Assembly (NCBI RefSeq): GCF_900104025.1 | Contig: NZ_FNIQ01000003.1 | Coordinates: forward strand, 62,001-126,000 | DNA from: Geodermatophilus sp. DSM 45219 | Lineage (GTDB): Bacteria; Actinomycetota; Actinomycetes; Mycobacteriales; Geodermatophilaceae | DNA: 64,000 nucleotides | Direction of reading: 5' to 3' | Shown: positions 5,804 through 64,000 of the stretch, piece after piece | How the letters are laid out: each line of letters opens with the position of its first letter | Numbering within the stretch: the first letter of the stretch is position 1 | Notes under the pieces: generated by a model | Databases searched by the model: none | What the model was told of the DNA's origin: nothing | Seen by the model: the letters and a program-made list of their open reading frames with translations, nothing else | Translations under genes and position numbers: made by a program

Positions 5804-6825
5804 CGCGCACGCCGGAGGACACGACGCTCGAGCAGCGCACGACGGCGCCGGCGACAGCGGCCGCGGGGCCGTCACGCCGTCGCCTCGGCCCGGCCGCCGT
5901 CTGGCAGACGGTCGGACCCCTGGCCGTCTTCGTGGCCCTCTTCGCCCTGGTGTCCGCGCTCAACCCGGCCTTCCTCGGCGGGGGCCTGCGCATCCTCGCG
6001 CTGCAGGCGACCACGATCCTCCTCGTGGCGCTGGGCCAGGCCATGGTCCTGCACGTCGGGTCCATCGACCTGTCCAACGCCGCGATGGCGATCCTGTCGG
6101 CCATCGTGCTCGCGATGACGCTGGGCCCGCTGGCCGCCGCCGCTCCGCTGGTCTGCATCGCGCTGATGACCGCGGTCGGCGCGGTCAACGGAGCGCTGGT
6201 CGCGTACGCGCAGGTCCCCTCGTTCGCCCTGACCCTGGGCACCCTGGGCATCCTGCAGGCCGCCGCGCTGGTGGTCAGCGACGCCACGACGGTGTACGTC
6301 ACCGCCAACCGGGAGGTCCTCGCGCCGCTGTTCGGGACGGCCATGGTGGGTCTCCCGGCGGGGTTCTGGGTGGCCGTGGTCCTGGCCGTGCTCCTCTGGG
6401 TGCTGCTCCGCTCCACCCGGTTGGGTCAGGCCCTGACCGCCGTGGGGCTCAACGAGACCGGCGCGCTGTTCTCGGGCCTGCGCACCCGGAGGCTGAAGGT
6501 CCTCGCCTTCGCGCTCTCGGGCTTCCTCGCAGGTGTCGCCGGCGTGATGATCATCGCCCAGGCCGGCGCGGCGTCGTCCTTCGGCCTCGGCAGCGACCTG
6601 CTGCTCCCGGGCATCGCGGCCGCGATCGTGGGGGGGACGGCGATCACGGGCGGCGTCACCAACCCGATCGGCGTGGTCTTCGGCGCCCTGACCGTCGCCC
6701 TCATCCCGATCGCGGCCGCGGCGGTCGGCGTCACGCCGCAGGCGCAGAGCCTCGTCTACGGGGCCGCGATCATGGTCGCGGTCGCGCTCACCATGACCCG
6801 GCGGAACCGCGGGGTCGTCAAGTAA
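5800..6825 (+). CDS. ABC transporter permease 2 (RbsC-like)
   Basis: A 341-residue permease related to permease 1. It carries the corresponding HVGSIDLSNAAM segment and the cytoplasmic GLNETGALFSGL loop. Start GTG at 5800 overlaps the ATPase stop (GTGA). Two different permeases flanking one double ATPase resemble LsrC/LsrD-type importers rather than single-permease ribose systems, so a heterodimeric channel is likely. About ten transmembrane segments are apparent. Confidence 0.9.
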   Translation: MTRTPEDTTLEQRTTAPATAAAGPSRRRLGPAAVWQTVGPLAVFVALFALVSALNPAFLGGGLRILALQATTILLVALGQAMVLHVGSIDLSNAAMAILSAIVLAMTLGPLAAAAPLVCIALMTAVGAVNGALVAYAQVPSFALTLGTLGILQAAALVVSDATTVYVTANREVLAPLFGTAMVGLPAGFWVAVVLAVLLWVLLRSTRLGQALTAVGLNETGALFSGLRTRRLKVLAFALSGFLAGVAGVMIIAQAGAASSFGLGSDLLLPGIAAAIVGGTAITGGVTNPIGVVFGALTVALIPIAAAAVGVTPQAQSLVYGAAIMVAVALTMTRRNRGVVK

Positions 6826-6921
6826 CCACAGCCCGGGCGTCCCGTGGGTGGTCGGTCCCTCGGACGCGCAAGTCGCAGGCGGCGCGGTGCTCGCGCCGAC
6901 CCCAGGGAGGAAGAGGAGAGA

Positions 6922-8385
6922 ATGCCTGTTCTGTCATCGCTCGAGCCCCGCGAGGTGCTCGGCTTCTTCGAGACCATGTCGGACATCCCGCACGGGTCGG
7001 GCAACGAGGAGCAGGTCGCGGACTGGGTCGTCCAGTTCGCCCGCGAGCGGGGCCTGGAGGCGATCCAGGACGACCTGCACTGCGTGCTGGTCAGGAAGCC
7101 GGGGCAGCGGGGCCTGGAGAACGCCCCACCGCTGATCCTGCACGGCCACCTCGACATGGTGTGCGAGAAGGACGAGGGGGTCGACATCGACTTCCTCACC
7201 GAGCCCATCCGGCTGGTCGTCGACGGCGACTACATCACCGCGGCCGGCACGTCGCTGGGCGCGGACAACGGCATCGGGGTCTCCTACATCCTCGCGCTGC
7301 TCGACTCCACGGACATCCCGCACCCGCCGCTGGAGGCGGTCCTCACCGCGATGGAGGAGAAGGGCAAGGTCGGAGCCGCCCAGTTCGACACCTCGCAGCT
7401 CTCCGGCAAGCGGATGATCGACTTCAACTGGATCACCGACAAGGAGATCCTGGCCGGCTGCAGCGGTGACGTCACACTCACCATCGACGTCCCGGCCGAG
7501 TGGGAGGACGTGCCCGCCACGCACCCGGAGTCGCGCCTGCTCAAGGTGCGCGGCCTGGTCGGCGGCCACTGCGAGTTCGACATCCACCTGGAGCGGGCCA
7601 ACGCGGTCCTCGTGCTGGCCCGGGTGCTGAACGCGGTGCTGGCCCGGCACGACGTCCGCATCAGCGATCCGCACGGCGGGGCCCAGAACAACGCGATCCC
7701 GATGGACGCCCAGGTCGTCCTCGCCCTCCGGCCCGAGGACGTGGCGGGCGTCGAGGCGATCGTGGCCGAGCTCGGGGCGGCCCTGCGGTCGGAGTACCGG
7801 ACGGCGGACCCGGGGATCAGGCTCGAGGTGGAGCCGGCCGACGCGCCGGAGCGGGTGTTCTCGGCCGAGGCGACCGCGCGCTTCTCGCGGCTGACCTCGC
7901 TGATCCCCAACGGCGTCCTCAGCTGGAGCCTGGTGGTCCCCGGGATCGTGGAGAGCTCCAACAACCTCGGCACGGTCCGGACGACCGACGACGGGGCCCG
8001 GCTGATGTCGACCATCACCGCCGCGGTGACGTCGCGCAAGCACGAGGTCTTCGACCGCATCCGCGCCCTGGCGGCCCTGGCCGGGGGCGGCGTGGTCGTC
8101 GAACAGTACGGGCTGGACGCCCCGGAGTTCCCCTACCAGCCCGAGTCGCGGCTGCTGGAGATCGCCGCGAAGGCCTACCGGGACGTCATCGGCGGAGACC
8201 CGGACGTGCACGTCTCCCAGTGCAGCCTCGAGCTCGGCATGTTCAGCCAGAAGATCCCCGGCCTGGACACCATCTCCATCGGCACGGAGCTGCACGACCT
8301 GCACTCGCCCAAGGAGACGGTGAACCACAGGTCCGTGGCGAAGGTCTGGCCGCTCGTCCGCGAGGTGGTCAGCCGGCTCGACTGA
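6922..8385 (+). CDS. pepD: aminoacyl-histidine dipeptidase PepD (M20C)
   Basis: A 487-residue cytosolic metallopeptidase with a strong GGAGGAAGAGGAG ribosome site. M20 motifs are visible: LHGHLDMVCE (residues 73-82, first His/Asp metal ligands), SLGADNGIG, MEEKGKVGA (catalytic Glu pair) and the C-terminal LHDLHSPKE His ligand. Family members hydrolyse Xaa-His dipeptides such as beta-Ala-His and related beta-alanyl peptides. It follows the importer operon by 96 bp on the same strand, so the importer may bring in the dipeptide or a related compound (inference). Confidence 0.9.
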   Translation: MPVLSSLEPREVLGFFETMSDIPHGSGNEEQVADWVVQFARERGLEAIQDDLHCVLVRKPGQRGLENAPPLILHGHLDMVCEKDEGVDIDFLTEPIRLVVDGDYITAAGTSLGADNGIGVSYILALLDSTDIPHPPLEAVLTAMEEKGKVGAAQFDTSQLSGKRMIDFNWITDKEILAGCSGDVTLTIDVPAEWEDVPATHPESRLLKVRGLVGGHCEFDIHLERANAVLVLARVLNAVLARHDVRISDPHGGAQNNAIPMDAQVVLALRPEDVAGVEAIVAELGAALRSEYRTADPGIRLEVEPADAPERVFSAEATARFSRLTSLIPNGVLSWSLVVPGIVESSNNLGTVRTTDDGARLMSTITAAVTSRKHEVFDRIRALAALAGGGVVVEQYGLDAPEFPYQPESRLLEIAAKAYRDVIGGDPDVHVSQCSLELGMFSQKIPGLDTISIGTELHDLHSPKETVNHRSVAKVWPLVREVVSRLD

Positions 8386-55398: not shown

Positions 55399-56169
55399 TC
55401 AGGTCGCAGGGCCCGGACGGAGTGACTCCCGGAGCAACCGCTGCAGGCGCTCGAGCAGGTTCTCCAGCGACTCCTCGAACTCTGCGGTCGACTCGTCCTC
55501 CGCCAGCAGCGGGGCCAGCCGGCGCACGTGCGGGTACTGGACCAGCGAGTGGTCCTCGGGGGTGGGTGAGGCGTCGGGGTCGTCCAGCGGGCTGATCGGC
55601 ACGCCGCGCTGGGAGACCTCGAGCAGCAGGTGCCCCAGCAGGAAGCTCGTGTAGGCCCGGTAGGCGGCGACCGCCGCCTCGTCGCTGAAGCCGTGACCGG
55701 TGAGCGCGTCGAGGAAGGACTCCAGCCAGCGCAGGCTGCGCAGCGGTGGGCGCACCCACGGGGCGGCCGGTGGCCGGGTGGCGATGAGCGGGAAGACCGC
55801 CGGGTGCGCGATGGCCATCCGCCGGACGCCGTGCGCGAGCCGTTGCAGGTAGTCCTGCCAGCCGTGCTTGGGCGCCAGGTAGACGTCCGGGTCGCCGTAG
55901 AGCTCGTCGATGACCAGCTCCACCACGCCGTCGAGCAGGTCGTCGCGGCCGGTGACGTGCCGGTACAGCGCCATCCCCTCGACGCCGAGGTGGGCACCCA
56001 TCCGGCGCATCGTGAGCGCCTCGAGACCGTGCTGGTCGATGAACTCGATGGCCGCGGTGAGCACCCGCCGCCGGTCGAGCGGGGTACGGATCGTCCCCGA
56101 TCTCACCGCGTCGGTGTGCGACCGCTTCTCCACGGGTACCCGAGCAGGCAGCCCGGCCTCGTCGACCAC
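55399..56169 (-). CDS. TetR/AcrR-family regulator
   Basis: A 256-residue regulator. GTG 56169 has GGGAGG upstream. The HTH begins after a basic leader: LDRRRVLTAAIEFIDQHGLE, MRRMGAHLGVEGMALYRHVT, GRDDLLDGVV. The ligand-binding C-terminal domain is of the TetR_C_1 (tetracycline-repressor-like) class, with a Glu-rich terminal helix. A dyad TTAC-nnn-GTAA lies about 100 bp upstream of its start and a second copy ahead of the STAS gene; both are candidate operators. Confidence 0.9.
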   Translation of the reverse strand: MVDEAGLPARVPVEKRSHTDAVRSGTIRTPLDRRRVLTAAIEFIDQHGLEALTMRRMGAHLGVEGMALYRHVTGRDDLLDGVVELVIDELYGDPDVYLAPKHGWQDYLQRLAHGVRRMAIAHPAVFPLIATRPPAAPWVRPPLRSLRWLESFLDALTGHGFSDEAAVAAYRAYTSFLLGHLLLEVSQRGVPISPLDDPDASPTPEDHSLVQYPHVRRLAPLLAEDESTAEFEESLENLLERLQRLLRESLRPGPAT

Positions 56170-56265
56170 CTCGTGCCTCCCGCCGTCGCGCCGCCCCGGC
56201 ACCTGTTGTACGCCGGCCCGCGCCGACTGAGCAGTCCCGGATCCCCGCACTACCCCGCACGAGCG

Positions 56266-56281
56266 TGTTTACGACGTAAGC
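56266..56281. promoter_or_regulatory. TTACnnnGTAA site between tetR and the PRC-barrel gene
   Basis: TGTTTACGACGTAAGC; 13 of 16 bases match the complement of 55002-55017. It lies in the 206-bp divergent region. Read rightwards, GTTTAC followed after 14 nt by GGGCAC also resembles a general-stress (SigB-type) promoter for the PRC-barrel gene. Confidence 0.55.
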
Positions 56282-56375
56282 ATCCTGGGCACCAGATCCC
56301 CGAGCGCACCGCACGACGGAGCGCCTGGACGCGGCTGCGGACCCGCAGCCCTCCCCGACACTCGACAGGAGCAGC

Positions 56376-57197
56376 ATGATCAGCGAGCAGCAGATCCAGC
56401 AGGTCATCGGCACCACCGCGGTCGACGCGGACGGCGACAAGCTCGGCAAGGTCGGCGAGGTCTACCTCGACGACGAGACCGGCCGCCCCGAGTGGGCGAC
56501 GGTGCAGACCGGCCTGTTCGGCACCAAGGAGACCTTCGTGCCGCTCGCCCAGGCCGACCTCTCGGGCAGCCAGCTGCGCTTCCCCTACGACAAGTCCAAG
56601 ATCAAGGACGCCCCGAAGGTCGACGCCGACGGGCACCTGTCGCCGCAGGAGGAGCAGGAGCTCTACCGCTACTACGGCCTCGGCTCGGGCACGGACACCA
56701 CCGTCACGGACACCACGACGACCGCCGGGACCGCGGGCCTGGCCGGCACCGGTGGGCGGACCGACCACGTGGGTGAGCCCGGCGTCGTCGGTCGCGACAC
56801 CTCCGGCCCCACCACGGACAACGCGATGACCCGCTCGGAGGAGCGCCTGAGTGTGGGCACCCGCACCGAGGAGGCCGGCCGCGCCCGGCTGCGCAAGTAC
56901 GTCGTGACCGAGAACGTGACCGAGACCGTGCCGGTCTCGCACGAGGAGGTCCGGGTCTCCCGCGAGCCGATCACCGACGCCAACATGGGCAACGCCATGG
57001 ACGGGCCGGCCATCTCCGAGGAGGAGCACGAGGTCACCCTCCACGCCGAGCGCCCGGTGGTGGCCAAGGAGGCCGTGCCGGTCGAGCGCATCCGCCTGGA
57101 CAAGGAGACCGTCACCGACCAGGAGACGGTCTCGGCGGACCTCCGCAAGGAGGAGATCGAGGTCGACGGCGTCCGGGACACCGACCGCCGCGTCTGA
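56376..57197 (+). CDS. PRC-barrel and DUF2382 (YsnF-like) stress protein
   Basis: A 273-residue cytosolic protein; ATG with CAGGAGCAGC upstream. The N-terminal PRC-barrel has VIGTTAVDADGDKLGKVGEV and RPEWATVQTGLFG. A Thr/Gly-rich linker leads to a DUF2382 domain with RLRKYVVTENVTETVPVSHE and VVAKEAVPVERIRLDKETV. Proteins of this layout are linked to oxidative and general stress in other bacteria and are common in radiation- and desiccation-tolerant actinobacteria. Function of the domain pair is unknown. Confidence 0.92.
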   Translation: MISEQQIQQVIGTTAVDADGDKLGKVGEVYLDDETGRPEWATVQTGLFGTKETFVPLAQADLSGSQLRFPYDKSKIKDAPKVDADGHLSPQEEQELYRYYGLGSGTDTTVTDTTTTAGTAGLAGTGGRTDHVGEPGVVGRDTSGPTTDNAMTRSEERLSVGTRTEEAGRARLRKYVVTENVTETVPVSHEEVRVSREPITDANMGNAMDGPAISEEEHEVTLHAERPVVAKEAVPVERIRLDKETVTDQETVSADLRKEEIEVDGVRDTDRRV

Positions 57198-57211
57198 TCC
57201 CCAGCACACCA

Positions 57212-57255
57212 CGACGAGGCCCCGTCGACGCCAGCGCGTCGACGGGGCCTCGTCG
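57212..57255 (+). terminator. strong terminator after the PRC-barrel gene
   Basis: A perfect 19-bp stem, CGACGAGGCCCCGTCGACG (57212-57230) with 57237-57255 and a 6-nt loop. It isolates the PRC-barrel gene from the M15 peptidase gene downstream. Confidence 0.9.
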
Positions 57256-57361
57256 CGTGCCCGGCTGGTTCCGCTCGCGGCGGCGGTGACCGCTCGGCCC
57301 GAGGGCGACGGGGCGGCCGTGGCGCCGCCGGCGACCACCTGGCGCCGGTGGCGCGGGGTGG

Positions 57362-57404
57362 TGATGCAGCGATGACGGGCTCGTGACGCCCGTCCCCCTA
57401 CGTT
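57362..57404 (+). promoter_or_regulatory. SARP-type 11-bp direct repeats and -10 of the M15 gene
   Basis: TGATG (57362), TGACG (57373) and TGACG (57384) are spaced exactly 11 bp. The last repeat ends 10 nt before a -10 box TACGTT (57399-57404). Direct repeats at one helical turn with the last one just upstream of the -10 are how SARP/BTAD regulators activate promoters. The predicted transcript start is about 115 bp before the M15 start codon. Confidence 0.6.
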
Positions 57405-57525
57405 GTGCCGCGTCTCCACGGGCGGAGCGGATCCCCAGCACAACGGGAACGGACACCCGGTGATCGCGCCCCCACGAGCGGCCCGCTCGGCCCGAGGACA
57501 TCCGTGACTGGACGAGGAGTCATCG

Positions 57526-58230
57526 ATGGTCGCCTCACAGAACGGCTATTCGGCCAACGACCGGACGATCGTCCAGTCCTACGCGATCGGCTCGTCGGGC
57601 AGGACCAGGGTCACCCTGCGCAAGGGCTCCACCGGGGCGATGCTCCAACACTTCGCCAACTGGTTCGACGCCGAAGTCCAGGACATCGACGCCGGCCGGT
57701 TGGACGACTGGGGCTACGCGGAACGCAATGTGCGCGACTCCTCCGACGTGAGCAACCACGCGTCGGGCACTGCGGTCGATCTCAACGCCACCAGGTGGCC
57801 GCTGGGCAGCCGGGCCAGCATCAACCTGTCGGCCGCCCAGGTCGCCGCAGTGCAGACGCAGTTGCAGCTCTACGAGGGCTGCATCCGCTGGGGCGAGAAC
57901 TACTCGGGGCGCACCGACCCCATGCACTTCGAGATCAACCGTGATCAAGGGACGGTCGACCGGGTCTGGGCCGAGATCGCCGGGGGGACCGCGCCCGCGC
58001 CCGCCCCGGTGGTCACCGGCCGCCCGACCCTGCGCATGGGCAGCAAGGGGGAGGCGGTCGAGCTGCTGCAGCGCACGCTCAACCTCCAGCACCCGGAGTA
58101 CTCCACGCTGACCGTCGACGCGGACTTCGGCCCGGCCACGGACGAGGTCGTGCGGGAGTTCCAGCGCCGGGAGGACCTCGCCGTCGACGGCGTGGTCGGC
58201 TCGGACACCTGGAGGGCGTTGGGCCTGTGA
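57526..58230 (+). CDS. M15 peptidase with C-terminal peptidoglycan-binding domain
   Basis: A 234-residue protein; ATG with GAGGAG upstream. The M15C-type D-Ala/L-Ala-D-Glu peptidase core has SNHASGTAVDLNATRWPLG (first Zn His and Asp) and DPMHFEI (second His). Residues 165-234 are a PG_binding_1 domain (LRMGSKGEAVELLQRTLNL, AVDGVVGSDTWRALG). No signal peptide is visible, as in phage endolysins and in cargo released by lysis. SARP-type repeats upstream place it with the BTAD regulator and the repeat protein. Confidence 0.9.
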   Translation: MVASQNGYSANDRTIVQSYAIGSSGRTRVTLRKGSTGAMLQHFANWFDAEVQDIDAGRLDDWGYAERNVRDSSDVSNHASGTAVDLNATRWPLGSRASINLSAAQVAAVQTQLQLYEGCIRWGENYSGRTDPMHFEINRDQGTVDRVWAEIAGGTAPAPAPVVTGRPTLRMGSKGEAVELLQRTLNLQHPEYSTLTVDADFGPATDEVVREFQRREDLAVDGVVGSDTWRALGL

Positions 58231-58402
58231 ACCGCCGGTCCCGGACGAGGTGCAGCCCGGTGCGGCCCGCTCCTCCGGCCACCGACGAGCCGCTCACCTC
58301 TGCGTGGGCACGGCTGTCCACGGCACGGTGATCCACCGCCCGTCTCGCCGGGGTCGGTGCGGTCTCCGTGCACCAGCCCCCGCCTCACGGGTCGTCCGGA
58401 GG

Positions 58403-58418
58403 TGACGATCTCGTGACG
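58403..58418 (+). promoter_or_regulatory. 11-bp spaced TGACG pair ahead of the BTAD gene
   Basis: TGACG at 58403-58407 and 58414-58418, spaced 11 bp, with the same core as the M15 promoter repeats. No clear -10 follows. Possible autoregulation of the BTAD gene. The rest of the 343-bp gap (58231-58573) shows nothing recognisable. Confidence 0.4.
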
Positions 58419-58573
58419 GGCGCCGCCGAGACTCCGGTCCGACAAGCAGTGGGTCGTCGCCGTGCCCGCGCTCCTGGCACCGCTTGCCGGCACGGGCGGC
58501 TCCACCACGGAACCCGGGTCACTGCGGCGGGCCGGCCGGCGCCGGCTCCGGCCCACCGCGGGGGGAGAGCCAG

Positions 58574-59323
58574 TTGGGACACCACGCGACAGCCCGGTCA
58601 CACCTGTCCCTGATGGGCCACTTCCTGGTGCGCCGGGGGAGACAGCCCGTGCAGGTCTGCCCTTCCGCGCGGCGCCTGGTCGCCCTTGTCGCGGTCCAGG
58701 GTCCCCTCGCGCGAGAGGAAGCGGCGGGGCGGCTCTGGACGGACCTCACCAGGGCTCGCGCCCTCGCCGACCTCCGCACGGTCCTGTGGCGGCTGCATCG
58801 TGATGTGCCGGGGCTGCTGGTCCGGAGGGGCGAGATGCTGCACCTGGCCGAGGACGTCCACGTCGACCTCGACGACGTGCGGGCGTGGTGCCGCGCGTCC
58901 CTGGCCGCTGACCAGCCCCTCGACGACAGCCCGGCGGGTGTGAACCAGGAGCTGCTCCCCGGCTGGGGGGACCCGTGGCTCGTCGGTGTGCGGGAGGAGC
59001 TCCGGCTGGTCCAGCTCAACGCCCTCCAGAAGCAGGCCGAGTGCCTCCTGGCCCGAGGACGGCTCGTCGAGGCGACCGAGCGGGTGATGGCCGCGATCGC
59101 TCTCGACCCGCTGCGCGAGAGCGCCACGCGCCTGCTGATCGAGATCCACGTCAGGGAGGGGAACACCGCCGAGGCGCTCCGCCTGTACCGGCGGTTCGAG
59201 AGCCTGCTGTGGCGGGAGCTCCGTGTCGCTCCGGATCGCCAGCTGTCACTGGCCCTCGGTGAGGCTGTCCGGTTCGTCGTGCCAGGACACCAGCTGCAGG
59301 CCGGATCTGCACGGGCACGTTGA
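58574..59323 (+). CDS. BTAD-domain (SARP-like) transcriptional regulator
   Basis: A 249-residue protein. TTG 58574 follows GGGGGAGAG and includes the whole N-terminal winged helix, which begins SHLSLMGHFLVRRGRQPVQV and continues SARRLVALVAVQGPLAREEA and RALADLRTVLWRLHRDVPGL. The BTAD domain (residues ~105-240) has VREELRLVQLNALQKQAECL, VMAAIALDPLRESATRLLIE and ALRLYRRFESLLWRELRVAP. SARPs bind direct repeats at 11-bp steps; such repeats occur ahead of its own gene and of both flanking genes. It is the likely activator of the cassette. Confidence 0.9.
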   Translation: MGHHATARSHLSLMGHFLVRRGRQPVQVCPSARRLVALVAVQGPLAREEAAGRLWTDLTRARALADLRTVLWRLHRDVPGLLVRRGEMLHLAEDVHVDLDDVRAWCRASLAADQPLDDSPAGVNQELLPGWGDPWLVGVREELRLVQLNALQKQAECLLARGRLVEATERVMAAIALDPLRESATRLLIEIHVREGNTAEALRLYRRFESLLWRELRVAPDRQLSLALGEAVRFVVPGHQLQAGSARAR

Positions 59324-59388
59324 CGCGGACGGGACAGCCCGTCACGTGGACGTCCTCTCCTCTCACCAGCGCTCGGACGGTCGTCGGT

Positions 59389-59466
59389 CGAGACGGTCCT
59401 GAGACGCCCTCGCGACGCCCACGAGACGAGGACGCGACGCCGCCGAAGCGCCGCCTGGGGGACTCT
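59389..59466 (+). promoter_or_regulatory. array of 11-bp direct repeats ahead of the repeat-protein gene
   Basis: GAGACG/GCGACG hexamers begin at 59390, 59401, 59412, 59423 and 59434, exactly 11 bp apart. A sixth, weaker GAAGCG is at 59445-59450, followed after 10 nt by a -10-like GACTCT (59461-59466). The distance from last repeat to -10 equals that in the M15 promoter. This is a strong candidate BTAD/SARP binding array, leaving a 5' leader of about 225 nt before ATG 59695 in which no other element was recognised. Confidence 0.65.
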
Positions 59467-59694
59467 TCGCCTCGTCCCCGCGGAACTGCACCGCCACCGG
59501 CTCCAGCGCCGGCGGACCCATCCGCCTCAGCCGGCGCGGGACCCGACCGGAGCAGCACCAGAGCGAGACCACAGGACCGGTCGCCAGTCCTGGCGAGATC
59601 CCCAGGGCGGGAGCACACGGCACGGCCGCACCGCAACAACCGACGCAGAGGCCCCATCCGGTAAATCACGGGGTCGGACTCCAGGAGGAATGAG

Positions 59695-61269
59695 ATGACC
59701 GCACCTCAGTTGGCGCCCCAAGGCGCGCTGGGTCAGCAGCTCGGCGGCACCCTCGGCGGCCTCGGCGGCGGCCTGCTCGGCCAGTCCGGGCTCGGCCAGC
59801 AGTTCGGCGGCGCCCTCGGCAGCCTGCTGCCCTTCGGCGCCGGCCCGCAGCAGCAGCAGCAGCAGCAGATGGACCCGCAGGGCGCCATCGGTCAGCTGCT
59901 CGGCAGCCTGCTGCCGTTCTCCGGCGGCCCCCAACAGCAGATGGCCCCCCAGGGCGCGATCGGTCAGCTGCTGGGCAGCCTGGTGCCCTTCGCCGCCGGC
60001 CCCCAGCAGCAGCAGATGGCCCCCCAGGGCGCCATCGGCCAGCTGCTGGGCAGCCTGGTGCCCTTCGCCGCCGGCCCCCAGCAGCAGCAGATGGCCCCCC
60101 AGGGCGCCATCGGCCAGCAGCTCGGCGGCACCCTCGGCGGCCTCGGCGGCGGCCTGCTCGGCCAGGCCGGCCTCGGCCAGCAGCTGGGCAGCGTGCTCGG
60201 CAACCTGCTGCCCTTCGCCGCCGGCCCCCAACAGCAGATGGCCCCCCAAGGCGCCATCGGCCAGCTGCTGGGCAGCCTGGTGCCCTTCGCCGCCGGCCCC
60301 CAACAGCAGATGGCCCCCCAGGGCGCCATCGGCCAGCAGCTCGGCGGGGCGCTCGGCGGCCTGGGCGGCGGCCTGCTCGGGCAGGCCGGCCTCGGCCAGC
60401 AGCTGGGCAGCGTGCTCGGCGACCTGCTGCCCTTCTACGCCGGCCCGCAACAGCAGCAGATGGCCCCCCAGGGGGCGCTCGGCCAGCAGCTCGGCGGCAC
60501 CCTCGGCGGCCTCGGCGGCGGCCTGCTCGGGCAGGCCGGCCTCGGCCAGCAGCTGGGCAGCGTGCTCGGCAACCTGCTGCCCTTCGCCGCCGGCCCCCAA
60601 CAGCAGATGGCCCCCCAAGGGGCGATCGGTCAGCTGCTGGGCAGCCTGGTGCCCTTCGCCGCCGGCCCCCAGCAGCAGATGGCCCCCCAGGGCGCCATCG
60701 GCCAGCAGCTCGGCGGCACCCTCGGCGGCCTCGGCGGCGGCCTGCTCGGCCAGGCCGGCCTCGGCCAGCAGCTGGGCAGCGTGCTCGGCAACCTGCTGCC
60801 CTTCGCCGCCGGCCCCCAGCAGCAGATGGCCCCGCAGGGCATCTTTGGCGGCGCGCTGGGCAGCGCCCTGGGCGGAGCGCTCGGCGGCGCGTTCGGGGAC
60901 AGCGGTCTCGGCAGCACCATCGGCGGCATCGCCGGCGGCCTGCTGCCCTTCTCCGGCGGCCCGCAGCAGCAGATGGCCCCGCAGGGGATCTTCAGTGGCC
61001 AGTCCACTCCGCTCAGTGATCTGATCCAGCACCTGAGCCAGCAGCCCCTCGGTTCCGGAGGCATCGGGAGCCCCACCACGAGCATCCTGCCCTTCGGCGC
61101 CGGCCCGCAGCAGCAGATGGCCCCGCAGGGTGCCTTCGGTCAGCAGCTCGGCGGCGCACTGGGCGGTCTGGGCGGTGGCCTGTTCGGCCAGTCCGGCATC
61201 GGTCAGCAGCTCGGCAGCACCCTGGGCAGCCTGCTGCCGTTCTCCGCGGGGCTGCAGATGGCTCGGTGA
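59695..61269 (+). CDS. Gly/Leu/Gln-rich 13-unit repeat protein
   Basis: A 524-residue protein with AGGAGGA ahead of the ATG. After a 9-residue start it is built of 13 units that nearly all end LLPF-xxGP-Qn-MAPQ (LVPF in short units). Long units (about 49 residues) follow GAIGQQLGGTLGGLGGGLLG, then QAGLGQQLGSVLGNLLPF. Short units (about 24 residues) lack the internal 25 residues and read GAIGQLLGSLVPFAAGPQQQ. Units 11 and 12 diverge. No signal peptide. The alternation of Gly-zipper-like hydrophobic stretches with Gln-rich linkers suggests a self-assembling, fibril-like or membrane-active scaffold. One copy of the long unit also ends the subtilase two genes downstream. Confidence 0.85.
   Translation: MTAPQLAPQGALGQQLGGTLGGLGGGLLGQSGLGQQFGGALGSLLPFGAGPQQQQQQQMDPQGAIGQLLGSLLPFSGGPQQQMAPQGAIGQLLGSLVPFAAGPQQQQMAPQGAIGQLLGSLVPFAAGPQQQQMAPQGAIGQQLGGTLGGLGGGLLGQAGLGQQLGSVLGNLLPFAAGPQQQMAPQGAIGQLLGSLVPFAAGPQQQMAPQGAIGQQLGGALGGLGGGLLGQAGLGQQLGSVLGDLLPFYAGPQQQQMAPQGALGQQLGGTLGGLGGGLLGQAGLGQQLGSVLGNLLPFAAGPQQQMAPQGAIGQLLGSLVPFAAGPQQQMAPQGAIGQQLGGTLGGLGGGLLGQAGLGQQLGSVLGNLLPFAAGPQQQMAPQGIFGGALGSALGGALGGAFGDSGLGSTIGGIAGGLLPFSGGPQQQMAPQGIFSGQSTPLSDLIQHLSQQPLGSGGIGSPTTSILPFGAGPQQQMAPQGAFGQQLGGALGGLGGGLFGQSGIGQQLGSTLGSLLPFSAGLQMAR
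59722..61269 (+). repeat. thirteen long/short coding repeats with a CAG tract
   Basis: Unit order is long, three short, long, short, two long, short, long, two diverged long, long. Short units equal long ones minus about 75 bp, so unit gain and loss by recombination is likely. A (CAG)7 tract at 59848-59868 encodes seven Gln in unit 1. Near-identity of several units at the DNA level indicates recent duplication or gene conversion. Confidence 0.88.
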
Positions 61270-61341
61270 GCGACGGCAGCGGCACGGCGGCGGATGGGAC
61301 GGATCGGCGGATCACCCCCATGGGGACCCGCTCCAGGCAGA

Positions 61342-61406
61342 GCTCCCGTGACGGGAGCGCACGGGATGCGGTGCGGCACGTCGCTCTACCGGTCGCACCG
61401 CATCCC
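61342..61406 (+). terminator. two hairpins between the repeat-protein and I9-like genes
   Basis: GCTCCCG (61342-61348) pairs with CGGGAGC (61352-61358), followed by a 13-bp stem GGGATGCGGTGCG (61363-61375) with 61394-61406. They lie 73-137 bp after the repeat-protein stop and 48 bp before the I9-like start. They could reduce read-through so that scaffold greatly exceeds protease and inhibitor, or stabilise the upstream message. Confidence 0.6.
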
Positions 61407-61453
61407 CGGCCAAGCTCGGACGTCCGTTCCGCCATCGTGAGGAGAAGGATCTC

Positions 61454-61681
61454 GTGGACCCCCAGCAGTACATCGTGACCGACAGACGAGATGGGGCCGG
61501 CGACGAGGGATTCGGTGGATTCCTGGCGGCGGCCGAGCACATGGCCGGCGTGACCATCAAGAAGGTCCACTCGCGCTACGTCGTCTTCGAGGCGCCCCCG
61601 GCCGTTGCCGAGACATTGGCACAGCAAGTGGGGACCGAGTACCAGATCACTCCGAACAGTGAACTCAACCTGTACGGCTGA
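61454..61681 (+). CDS. stand-alone I9-like (subtilase propeptide fold) protein
   Basis: A 75-residue protein; GTG with GAGGAGAAGGA upstream. Its order QYIVTDRR (strand), GFGGFLAAAEHMAG (helix), VTIKKVHSR and YVVFEAPP (strands), AVAETLAQQV (helix), ITPNSELNLYG (strand) is the ferredoxin-like beta-alpha-beta-beta-alpha-beta of peptidase-inhibitor I9. It parallels residues 36-126 of the subtilase 58 bp downstream (QYLMAPRP, LDVVKRIKR, DILVTNMEP, ERAQLIAATA, LTIGENARLQYG). Likely roles are inhibitor or folding chaperone of that protease. No signal peptide. Confidence 0.8.
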   Translation: MDPQQYIVTDRRDGAGDEGFGGFLAAAEHMAGVTIKKVHSRYVVFEAPPAVAETLAQQVGTEYQITPNSELNLYG

Positions 61682-61738
61682 ACCCAACCCATACGGCACG
61701 ACGTAGGAGTCGCGGCCCTTTGTGGAGGAGGATCCCCC

Positions 61739-63751
61739 ATGCCCCAGTCGGAAGGCCGTGGCAGTCGACCCCCGGCGAACGGCGGCGGCGCGCCGGCGCC
61801 GGCGGCGGACGGCGGCGAGGTACGGGTCGGCCCGCCCATCCGCCAGTACCTGATGGCACCGCGGCCGGGGCTGACCGCCCATGCCGCGGGCGTCCGCCCG
61901 ATGGCCGCGGGGCTGCTGAACGCCACGGTGGACTCGATGGGCCTCGACGTGGTCAAGCGGATCAAGCGCCCCCGCCGCACCCTGGCGACCTTCGGGGCCT
62001 CCTCGGGCGAGGCGACCGACATCCTCGTGACGAACATGGAGCCGGAGCGGGCCCAGCTGATCGCGGCCACCGCGCCCAACCTCACGATCGGTGAGAACGC
62101 CCGCCTCCAGTACGGCGCGCTGGTCAGCGCCGTCGGCGACTCGGCGCCCATCAGCGCCCTGCTCGCCCTGGGGGCGGTCCGACCCAAGCAGATCCGGTTC
62201 CGGGTCCTCGGCGAGGCCGACCGACCCCTGGCCGGCGCGACGGTGACCCTCGGCGGGGACACCGTCCCCCAGCAGGGGCTGACCGACCAGAAGGGGGAGC
62301 TCACCCTGCCCCTGCACACGCTCGGCGACCGGCCCGCGCGTTCGCTCTTCGTCGTCAAGCCCGGCGGTGGGTACTGGGACCTCTACCTCACCGAACCGAC
62401 GCTGTCGGACGGCAGCACGAACGTGATCCGGCTCCAGTCCTTCGGGGAGACGGTGGAGGGCTTCCCCACCTCCATGCAGTTCGGTTGGGGTCAGCGGCTG
62501 ATGGGCCTGGACCGCCTCCCTGCCGGGATCAACGGGGAGGGCGTGAAGATCGCGATCGTCGACTCGGGCGCCGACAACACCCACCCCCTCCTCGGTCACA
62601 TCCGGCTGGGTCGCGACCTGGGCGAGGGGAACCCCCCGAACGGCTGGACGAACGACCTGGTGGGGCACGGCTCGCACTGTGCGGGTGTGATCGCTGCGCG
62701 CTCGACCGAGGGCCAGCTGCGCGGGTTCGCCCCGGAGGCCGAGGTCCACGTCCTCAAGGTGTTCCCGGGCGGGCGGTACGACGGCCTCATCGACGCCCTG
62801 GACTACTGCATCGACCACCAGATCGACGTCGTGAACATGAGCCTCGGCGGCGACGAGAACAACCCGGCCGTCGAGGACACGCTGGCGGCCGCCGCGCTCA
62901 ACGGCATCGTCTGCATCGTGGCGGCCGGCAACTCCGGGGACGAGGTCAAGTTCCCCGCACGCTCGCCCAACGCCATCGCTGTCGCGGCGGTGGGCGATCT
63001 GCAGGAGGTCCGGCCCAACACGTGGGACAGCTCCACCTTCCGGGCGCAGTACCTGGCGGCCGACGGGGTGTTCTCCCCCACGTTCACCTGTCACGGCCCG
63101 GAGATCACCGTCTGCGCTCCGGGAGTGGGGATCATCTCGACGGTTCCCGGTGGGGCGTTCGAGAGCCAGTCCGGTACGTCGATGGCGGCACCGCACGTGA
63201 CCGGTCTGGCAGCGCTCCTGCTGGCACACCACCCCGTCTTCCGGAGCCAACTCCGCGAGCGCAACCAGGCGCGGGTCGCCGGACTCTTCAGCATCCTGCG
63301 GTCGATGTGCCAGCAGCTGCCCTTCGGCGCCGACCGCACCGGTGCGGGACTGCCGACCCTGGCCGGGTTCGAGGACACCCTCGTCCCGGGCGGAGCCGCA
63401 GCGGCCGCCCAGGGAGGCGCCGCGGCGTTCGTGCCGCCGTCGCCGCGGGCTCCCGTCGGAGGCGGCACGGGAGCCGTGGCACCCCAGGGGACCGGGCCCC
63501 AGATGGCCCCACAGGGTGTCATCGGCCAGCAGCTCGGCGGTGCACTCGGCGGCCTCGGTGGCGGGCTGCTCGGCCAGGCCGGCCTCGGGCAGCAGCTGGG
63601 CAGCGCACTGGGCACCCTGCTGCCGTTCTCCGCCGGCCCGCCGGTGACGCAGGAGGCCGCACTGATCCAGCAGTTGGGGACCGCGCTGGCCGACCCGCGG
63701 GTGATCGCCCTGCTGCAGGCCCAGTCCGCCGGGCAGGGCGCCAGGTGGTGA
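61739..63751 (+). CDS. subtilase (S8) with I9-like prodomain and repeat-unit tail
   Basis: A 670-residue serine protease; ATG with GTGGAGGAGG upstream. Residues 1-35 are disordered, 36-126 form an I9-like prodomain, and 150-230 a small beta-sandwich of CarboxypepD_reg type (RPLAGATVTLGG). The S8 domain has catalytic D275 (IAIVDSGAD), H310 (GHGSHCAGV), oxyanion N in VAAGNSGDE and S481 (SGTSMAAPHVTG). Residues 593-634 are one long unit of the upstream repeat protein (GVIGQQLGGALGGLGGGLLG), preceded by QMAPQ. No signal peptide, so it is intracellular or released by lysis. The shared tail suggests docking into an assembly of the repeat protein. Confidence 0.92.
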   Translation: MPQSEGRGSRPPANGGGAPAPAADGGEVRVGPPIRQYLMAPRPGLTAHAAGVRPMAAGLLNATVDSMGLDVVKRIKRPRRTLATFGASSGEATDILVTNMEPERAQLIAATAPNLTIGENARLQYGALVSAVGDSAPISALLALGAVRPKQIRFRVLGEADRPLAGATVTLGGDTVPQQGLTDQKGELTLPLHTLGDRPARSLFVVKPGGGYWDLYLTEPTLSDGSTNVIRLQSFGETVEGFPTSMQFGWGQRLMGLDRLPAGINGEGVKIAIVDSGADNTHPLLGHIRLGRDLGEGNPPNGWTNDLVGHGSHCAGVIAARSTEGQLRGFAPEAEVHVLKVFPGGRYDGLIDALDYCIDHQIDVVNMSLGGDENNPAVEDTLAAAALNGIVCIVAAGNSGDEVKFPARSPNAIAVAAVGDLQEVRPNTWDSSTFRAQYLAADGVFSPTFTCHGPEITVCAPGVGIISTVPGGAFESQSGTSMAAPHVTGLAALLLAHHPVFRSQLRERNQARVAGLFSILRSMCQQLPFGADRTGAGLPTLAGFEDTLVPGGAAAAAQGGAAAFVPPSPRAPVGGGTGAVAPQGTGPQMAPQGVIGQQLGGALGGLGGGLLGQAGLGQQLGSALGTLLPFSAGPPVTQEAALIQQLGTALADPRVIALLQAQSAGQGARW

Positions 63752-63789
63752 CCTGACCGGTTCCACGCCTACGGGCGGGGCCATGGCGA

Positions 63790-63824
63790 GGGGGCGGGGC
63801 CACCACAGGGCTCGCCCCGCCCCC
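63790..63824. terminator. terminator after the subtilase
   Basis: GGGGGCGGGGC (63790-63800) pairs with GCCCCGCCCCC (63814-63824) around a 13-nt loop, between the convergent subtilase and the partial gene at the window end. Confidence 0.75.
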
Positions 63825-63861
63825 CGACGCCTGACCGTCTGCCGGCCCGGAGTCCTCCGGG

Positions 63862-64000
63862 TCAGCTCCCGGCGGGGGTGACGCCGAACATCAGGACCCG
63901 GCGCTCGATGTCGTAGTGCACCGTGCCGGTGTTGGCCAGCAGGTCCTGCAGGTTGTCCGCGTCGTCGGGGTCCAGCGTGAGGACCTCCTCCCACGCCCCC
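63862..64000 (-). CDS. unknown protein (C-terminal fragment)
   Basis: The last 45 codons of a minus-strand gene that runs off the window. The fragment reads VLTLDPDDADNLQDLLANTG, then VHYDIERRVLMFGVTPAGS and a TGA stop. Frame and composition look coding and it faces a terminator shared with the subtilase. No family can be assigned from this piece. Confidence 0.6.
   Translation of the reverse strand, partial: GAWEEVLTLDPDDADNLQDLLANTGTVHYDIERRVLMFGVTPAGS

Follow-up and report, generated by a model that had tools for sequence, protein, structure and literature searches.

A recurrent bacterial gene neighbourhood linking low-complexity repeat proteins to a subtilase family

Results

The locus and its conserved core

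This work concerns a locus of Geodermatophilus sp. DSM 45219 at which a repeat-rich protein is encoded close to a subtilase. The DNA analysed, here called the window, is 64,000 nucleotides long (positions 62001–126000 of the source contig NZ_FNIQ01000003.1; 70–79% G+C in 2-kb steps). Five genes, all on the + strand, are present as an adjacent set in the region 57362–63751 and encode an M15 peptidase, a BTAD regulator, a repeat protein, a 75-residue protein and a subtilase. A preliminary description of the locus had read all five as one cassette. The common strand and the domains were borne out; the M15 and BTAD genes, however, are not conserved with the rest. The cassette is mostly real, with a conserved core (repeat protein, 75-residue protein and subtilase) that is smaller than the five-gene set.

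The repeat protein (gene 1; 59695..61269, + strand; 524 residues) has no match in Pfam, NCBIfam or PADLOC. It is composed of 26% G, 18.5% Q and 17% L, with 1.0% charged residues. Consistent with the 13-unit Gly/Leu/Gln-rich protein described previously, 13 PQG and 13 [LV]PF motifs were counted in its sequence. The units span from a PQG motif to a [LV]PF motif, come in two lengths (a long one of ∼45 residues and a short one of 20), and are near-identical and joined by conserved QQQ-M linkers. Gene 1 is followed, ahead of the next gene, by a strong hairpin (61363..61406, + strand; inverted 13-mer at 61363 and 61394), and the 184-nt gap that holds it folds at −97.8 kcal/mol (z −3.1). It is possible that this hairpin is an attenuator that holds the level of the protease below that of the scaffold. 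The following gene (gene 3; 61454..61681, + strand) starts with GTG and encodes the stand-alone module of 75 residues, which is homologous to the N-terminal module of the subtilase and gives nothing significant in Pfam.

The subtilase (gene 4; 61739..63751, + strand; 670 residues) consists of the N-terminal module (residues ∼34–125), a β-sandwich-like part with a weak CarboxypepD_reg match at 152–191, the Peptidase_S8 domain at 266–501, and a tail. Its score against Pfam PF00082 was 135.2 bits (cut-off 21.8), which places it in Peptidase S8, and its catalytic residues are complete (D275, H310, the oxyanion asparagine N398 and S481). The two best-scoring NCBIfam models were the type VII secretion system (T7SS) mycosin model TIGR03921 (103.9 bits; cut-off 278.75) and the QhpE model NF049966 (68 bits; cut-off 165). 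Both scores are far below the cut-offs. PADLOC returned a generic subtilase model together with weak IetS matches. Assignment to the anti-phage subtilase IetS was rejected, as NF042956 gave 12.4 bits against a cut-off of 900 and three PADLOC IetS models gave at most 21 bits. Across the first 40 residues of all five products, the Kyte-Doolittle 19-residue mean reached a maximum of 0.79; there is no Sec-like hydrophobic core, which agrees, on this hydrophobicity measure, with the earlier statement that none carries a signal peptide.

A gene-1-type unit in the subtilase tail

A hidden Markov model (HMM) of the unit was built solely from six distinct long units of the window gene 1, and was searched against 4481 open reading frames (ORFs) from the window and 22 fetched loci (designated L and a number). 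Matches below E 1e-4 were confined to the window gene 1 and the window subtilase tail (both repeated in the overlapping L006) and to gene 1 of L014, L010 and L035. The next best match was at 0.54, and the best match in a reversed control was at 1.2. The tail match covers residues 589–633 of the subtilase (63503..63637, + strand) and is one complete gene-1-type unit (E 3.4e-20), as the preliminary description had proposed from the letters of the sequence.

When the tail unit was compared with six of the seven long gene 1 units of the same length, non-synonymous divergence (dN) was 0.05–0.12 and synonymous divergence (dS) 0.31–0.60; against the seventh, divergent unit the values were 0.47 and 0.76. 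The tail unit is therefore not a fresh copy, and its amino acids have been kept by purifying selection. This shared and constrained unit is the best single argument from the sequences for docking of the subtilase on the scaffold, which it supports. Matching units in scaffold and enzyme also offer a ready two-component test of client recruitment.

A motif common to neighbouring gene products is also a property of bacterial amyloid signalling sequence (BASS) pairs, in which NLRs are linked to BELL or, less often, CHAT or TIR domains (the part of PMC7889193 consulted). Here too the unit is common to neighbouring products, gene 1 and the subtilase tail, and this raises the idea of a prion-like signalling pair, in which the shared unit would template a polymer and the polymer would in turn activate the subtilase, an effector of cell death or defence. 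The patchy distribution (the subtilase was matched in none of 25 other genomes of the genus) and the distant PADLOC subtilase matches would fit such a pair. The unit here is long, however, and is repeated 13 times; it is glycine- and leucine-rich and its amyloid nature is not shown; and the tail unit was seen at one locus only. Moreover, no NLR or BELL partner was recognised by eye at the loci, where no family search of the neighbours was made, and no ORF among the 4481 other than gene 1 proteins and the subtilase tail carried the unit below E 0.5. The term ‘subtilisin’ does not occur in PMC7889193, and neither ‘subtilisin’ nor ‘subtilase’ occurs in PMC8195603. A prion-like pair is considered improbable.

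The gene neighbourhood recurs in other genomes

The preliminary description had asked whether relatives of the repeat protein and of the subtilase occur independently. Both were limited to the source genome and one other, G057: the repeat protein search matched 2 of 61 relatives, and the subtilase search (E ≤ 1e-40) 2 of 98, with no match at this threshold in 25 other genomes of the same genus. Independent occurrence, which would have counted against the cassette, was not seen in these searches. In G057 (locus L014) the order is repeat protein (434 residues from the first start, 421 as called), a 114-residue helical protein, a 79-residue module and the subtilase. A scan of genome contigs gave 20 stretches matched by pattern, of which one, from a Thermoactinomycetaceae metagenome-assembled genome (MAG; locus L010), encodes a subtilase relative, 57% identical. 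Directly 5′ of it lies a gene for a 141-residue LPF/PQG protein, so that the core is present there without the 75-residue gene. Two Streptomyces plasmids contributed three subtilase copies, each with a Q/G-rich protein just before it.

Next, a profile of the non-catalytic front of the subtilase was used, and matched 14 of 394 genomes of the class, the source genome included. In a draw from the phylum it matched 2 of 396, one of them the source genome; the other (G290) was rejected, since the match covers profile positions 106–165 only and the gene start looks secreted. A phylum search with the whole subtilase (E ≤ 1e-55) matched 1 of 396, the source genome itself. In these surveys the number of candidates scored per genome was capped (at seven in the front-profile class and phylum surveys, 12 for the helical protein described below, three in the whole-protein phylum search), and absences are not proof. 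Thirteen loci were fetched and their genes called by a codon-position script that had been tried on the window and G057; adding the window, G057, the MAG and the three plasmid copies brings the family to 19 loci. Of these, L011, L015, L019 and L034 (the last from genome G633) are referred to as the Streptomyces-plasmid clade. Neighbours at the fetched loci were judged by eye from partial sequences.

Upstream sequence was available for 17 of the 19 loci (L039 and L043 run into contig ends), and in all 17 a repeat or low-complexity gene lies directly 5′ of the helical protein gene, of the stand-alone module (in the window) or of the subtilase. In 15 of the 17 the gene 1 product contains 0–5.1% charged residues. 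A comparison set of 185 background genes, called by the same script, does not go below 6.6%; its 5th percentile is 11.3% and its median 23.1%. The L035 protein was first called at 110 residues (3.6% charged, the value used in this count); a longer frame of 326 residues contains repeated units and is 3.1% charged. The recurrent gene neighbourhood is real. It is also apparently undescribed, term searches of open-licence papers having given no description of this gene combination.

The helical protein of ∼100 residues (gene 2) follows the same subtilase family closely. It was matched in 12 of 394 class genomes, all of them among the 14 with the subtilase family and each within 1 kb of the subtilase gene (hypergeometric value 3.7e-21, which ignores relatedness among the 12 genomes, from four genera). 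The profile had seven rows, and six of the 12 matching genomes supplied rows to it; the gene 2 and subtilase-front surveys each drew 394 class genomes, and the genomes listed for the two agree. The repeat or low-complexity protein, gene 2 and the 75-residue module gave no Pfam match above cut-off (1, 1 and 4 proteins scanned, respectively), yet all adjoin one subtilase family. The repeat-unit profile matched 1 of 201 class genomes, the source genome itself, in a draw that may not have included the unit-bearing genome G578. A tblastn search of plasmids with two repeat proteins and a gene 2 protein as queries, run with the BLAST low-complexity filter on, gave nothing useful.

The family tree pairs the window subtilase with that of the Thermoactinomycetaceae MAG as sisters (100/100), at a path length of 0.8 compared with at least 2.1 to all others. 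This position, together with the absence of the subtilase at E ≤ 1e-40 from 25 genomes of the same genus, makes horizontal transfer of the locus likely, in either direction; a misbinned MAG contig is the conceivable alternative.

Several features were observed around individual loci. Downstream of the G057 cassette, L014 10108–13365 holds a second, different subtilase and a weakly α/β-hydrolase-like gene; on the upstream side of the cassette there is a divergent gene for a LuxR-type regulator that includes an ATPase-like part. At L010, three small co-directional genes (6115–7197; 99, 99 and 138 residues) with weak Pfam matches, one of them to DUF3970, lie 5′ of the repeat protein. One Streptomyces plasmid holds two copies of the locus. 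A transposase pair, which we take to be IS3-like, is located just upstream of gene 1 at the pseudoprotease locus L034 (4290–5512 of the reverse complement). Paracoccus and Pararhizobium plasmids encode subtilases of similar three-part layout that are followed by ORFs of ∼80 residues (L016 6319–6570 and L017 6167–6412). These ORFs may be another stand-alone module, although the module HMM does not recognise them (E 0.3–1).

Catalytic residues are lost while the neighbourhood is kept

Alignment to D275, H310, N398 and S481 showed that the tetrad is complete in 13 of the 19 family subtilases and lost in six. In L034, L011, L015 and L019 the asparagine is replaced by aspartate and the serine by alanine or threonine; in L036 the histidine is replaced by arginine and the asparagine by aspartate; and in L046 the histidine, asparagine and serine are replaced by glycine, aspartate and glycine. 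The tree requires at least two changes for this loss, and L046 and others form long branches. Within the Streptomyces-plasmid clade, whose four copies are all dead, dN/dS was 0.15–0.25 in five pairs, compared with 0.11–0.24 in four active pairs, and the dead copies of this clade are under purifying selection. A subtilase that is unable to cut, and yet is constrained beside its low-complexity partner, argues for binding as the common role. Loss of catalysis with retention of the neighbourhood makes the family a testable case of a protease fold that has taken on a structural or signalling function in an assembly of prokaryotes.

The same data bear on whether gene 1 is a substrate, that is, a multi-unit precursor cut by the subtilase at the QQQ-M linkers into many hydrophobic, glycine-rich peptides. 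Subtilases mature peptide precursors, the near-identical units and conserved linkers of gene 1 would suit such processing, and the window subtilase has a weak match, below cut-off, to the NCBIfam PatA/PatG model. On the other hand, gene 1 is retained beside the six subtilases that do not have the full set of catalytic residues, the window subtilase itself bears a unit, and many gene-1 proteins have no such units. In addition, no transporter was recognised by eye among the neighbours listed, of which no family search was made. Taken together, a precursor role for gene 1 seems unlikely.

The 75-residue module is propeptide-like

The stand-alone module and the subtilase N-terminus were aligned by hhalign with a probability of 97.5 (P 5.7e-12), compared with 0.07 for a gene 2 control. 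An HMM of five stand-alone modules (from the window, L014, L035, L038 and L043) recognised, with E-values from 2e-5 to 0.7, the N-terminus of 14 of the 19 subtilases in the family; it also matched two unrelated ORFs, at 0.45 and 0.81. AlphaFold, run on the single 75-residue sequence, predicted a β-α-β-β-α-β order (pLDDT 81, pTM 0.65). This is the element order of subtilisin propeptides. In a Foldseek search with the model, none of 1266 PDB matches was at E ≤ 0.001 and no subtilisin propeptide was among the best 50 of the 1266, in which a procarboxypeptidase complex stood at rank 40. Neither module of the source genome matched the I9 family (Pfam PF05922) up to E 10, a threshold at which another locus, on C9, did match. 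Pfam scans of eight front modules and four stand-alone modules gave no I9, and comparison of the module profile with four I9 sequences gave a probability of 0.2%. The preliminary description had named both a stand-alone I9-fold protein and an I9-like subtilase front. The homology of the two modules stands and the predicted element order is right, but their I9 identity is not upheld by sequence, and the 75-residue protein is best termed propeptide-like.

Two described systems resemble this arrangement in part. PopC of Myxococcus xanthus has a subtilase domain behind a front without recognised domains and no signal peptide, and its release is inhibited by PopD, whereas in Plasmodium the stand-alone propeptide-like protein SUB1-ProM is encoded beside subtilases and inhibits one of them (the parts of PMC6434023 and PMC6993865 consulted). 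Hence signal-less subtilases with a release-blocking partner, and stand-alone propeptide-like inhibitors, exist. The present subtilase shares with PopC an undefined front and, on the hydrophobicity measure, a start with no hydrophobic stretch. A difference is that neither a repeat scaffold protein nor gene 2 appears in the consulted part of PMC6434023; SUB1-ProM, in turn, is eukaryotic, no repeat scaffold is mentioned in that part of PMC6993865, and inhibition in the present case is a conjecture. The PopC and AprX groups are also listed in PMC9549277, the consulted part of which names no repeat-scaffold partner.

These precedents, the lack of a hydrophobic N-terminal stretch and the adjoining small protein homologous to the front module would all be compatible with a PopC/PopD-like pair, in which a signal-less subtilase is kept in the cell by its cognate partner and released on a signal, with gene 1 as carrier or depot. 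Pseudoproteases, however, cannot act as secreted proteases, and 14 of the 19 loci gave no stand-alone module. Such a pair is judged to be about as unlikely as the precursor role of gene 1. A non-proteolytic role of subtilase-type pseudoproteases is itself on record for CspC and CspA of Clostridioides difficile (the parts of PMC6636752 and PMC12880746 consulted). Unlike the proteins described here, CspC and CspA serve in the sensing of spore germination. We know of no low-complexity partner gene for either of them.

A proposed cytoplasmic assembly

From the observations above we infer, with a probability of about 0.4, an undescribed cytoplasmic protein-assembly system in which a scaffold holds a restrained subtilase. 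Gene 1 would supply, in abundance, a repeat or low-complexity protein with almost no charge and the ability to self-assemble. The subtilase would be a client of this assembly, and the window version may dock through the repeat unit in its own tail. The propeptide-like N-terminal module would restrain the subtilase, and in some lineages a stand-alone copy might also act in trans. Gene 2, absent from the window, would be part of the complex in most versions found. Where proteolysis has been lost, the subtilase fold stays beside the scaffold gene, which would make binding or assembly, and not cleavage, the common role; in versions with an intact tetrad, assembly or disassembly probably switches local proteolysis. 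In its outline this resembles the protease restrained by I9 modules and docked on a self-assembling scaffold of the preliminary description, of which the constrained tail unit backs the docking and the module homology backs propeptide-like control in cis and in trans, while the I9 identity is not upheld by sequence. The part in defence, competition or morphogenesis suggested there would be a further conjecture.

Several results weigh against this assembly. The gene 2 profile search found no gene 2 in the source genome; when all 13 gene-2 proteins were made into an HMM, L010 and the four loci of the Streptomyces-plasmid clade gave no match either. The stand-alone module was found by the module HMM in only five of the 19 loci and, with I9 membership rejected by sequence, is a putative inhibitor. 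The gene 1 proteins of L014 (11.6% charged) and L038 (14.1%) are ordinary in charge. Of the 16 other loci, 13 have a gene 1 that the unit HMM does not match, so that a single origin for all gene-1 proteins is not shown. By the same HMM the tail copy of the unit is restricted to the window subtilase, with none in the 18 other family subtilases. Finally, the hairpins are mixed: among the 12 gaps of at least 30 nt that were folded, six had z < −2 (those of the window, L010, L034 and L015, and the gene 2–subtilase gaps of L040 and L046) and six did not.

A more far-reaching form of the assembly is also conceivable, though more doubtful. As a cytoplasmic condensate or fibre, the nearly charge-free repeat protein might use shared units and propeptide-like modules to recruit a zymogen-like subtilase, or a pseudoprotease descended from one, and so form a new class of organelle-like assembly that has crossed bacterial phyla.

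Flanking genes and regulatory sequences

The M15 gene (57526..58230, + strand) passed the Pfam cut-offs for Peptidase_M15_4 and PG_binding_1, and the BTAD gene (58613..59323, earliest start 58484, + strand) likewise passed its Pfam cut-offs; both are neighbours outside the conserved core. No M15 match (E ≤ 1e-30) was found in the 25 other genomes of the genus. BTAD relatives (E ≤ 1e-15) occur in 19 of the 25, although the subtilase was matched (E ≤ 1e-40) in none of the 25. Inspection by eye of the neighbours listed for other loci of the family showed neither gene. Both were therefore rejected as cassette members, and BTAD control of the cassette and release of the assembly by the M15 enzyme, as suggested earlier, are not supported.

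The M15 enzyme with its peptidoglycan-binding domain upstream, and the absence of a hydrophobic N-terminus, might also be taken to indicate a lysis module, or one derived from a phage, whose M15 enzyme would free the assembly. This is very improbable given that M15 is not conserved with the core and that a scan of viral contigs gave no relative of the subtilase. Fifty-nine phage records did match, but no match extended over 80% of the query, and the ten listed cover at most 43%. With no viral-contig relative and partial phage matches, a phage origin was rejected.

The BTAD regulators of the genus are multi-copy, and in L068, L069 and L070 they stand beside a different protein of ∼70 residues (70–107 as called), in which the motif LLVRVWLEG or a close variant of it occurs. 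The common 11-bp operators reported for the five genes were not recovered as stated: exact repeated 11-mers lie mostly within single intergenic stretches, and two (with complements) are common to two of seven stretches and none to three, counting exact words and without a chance expectation. A SigB-like promoter pattern had no match on the + strand of 56001–64000. Upstream of the whole set, a perfect inverted repeat with 20-base arms (57212–57255) directly follows a PRC-barrel/DUF2382 gene and is terminator-like.

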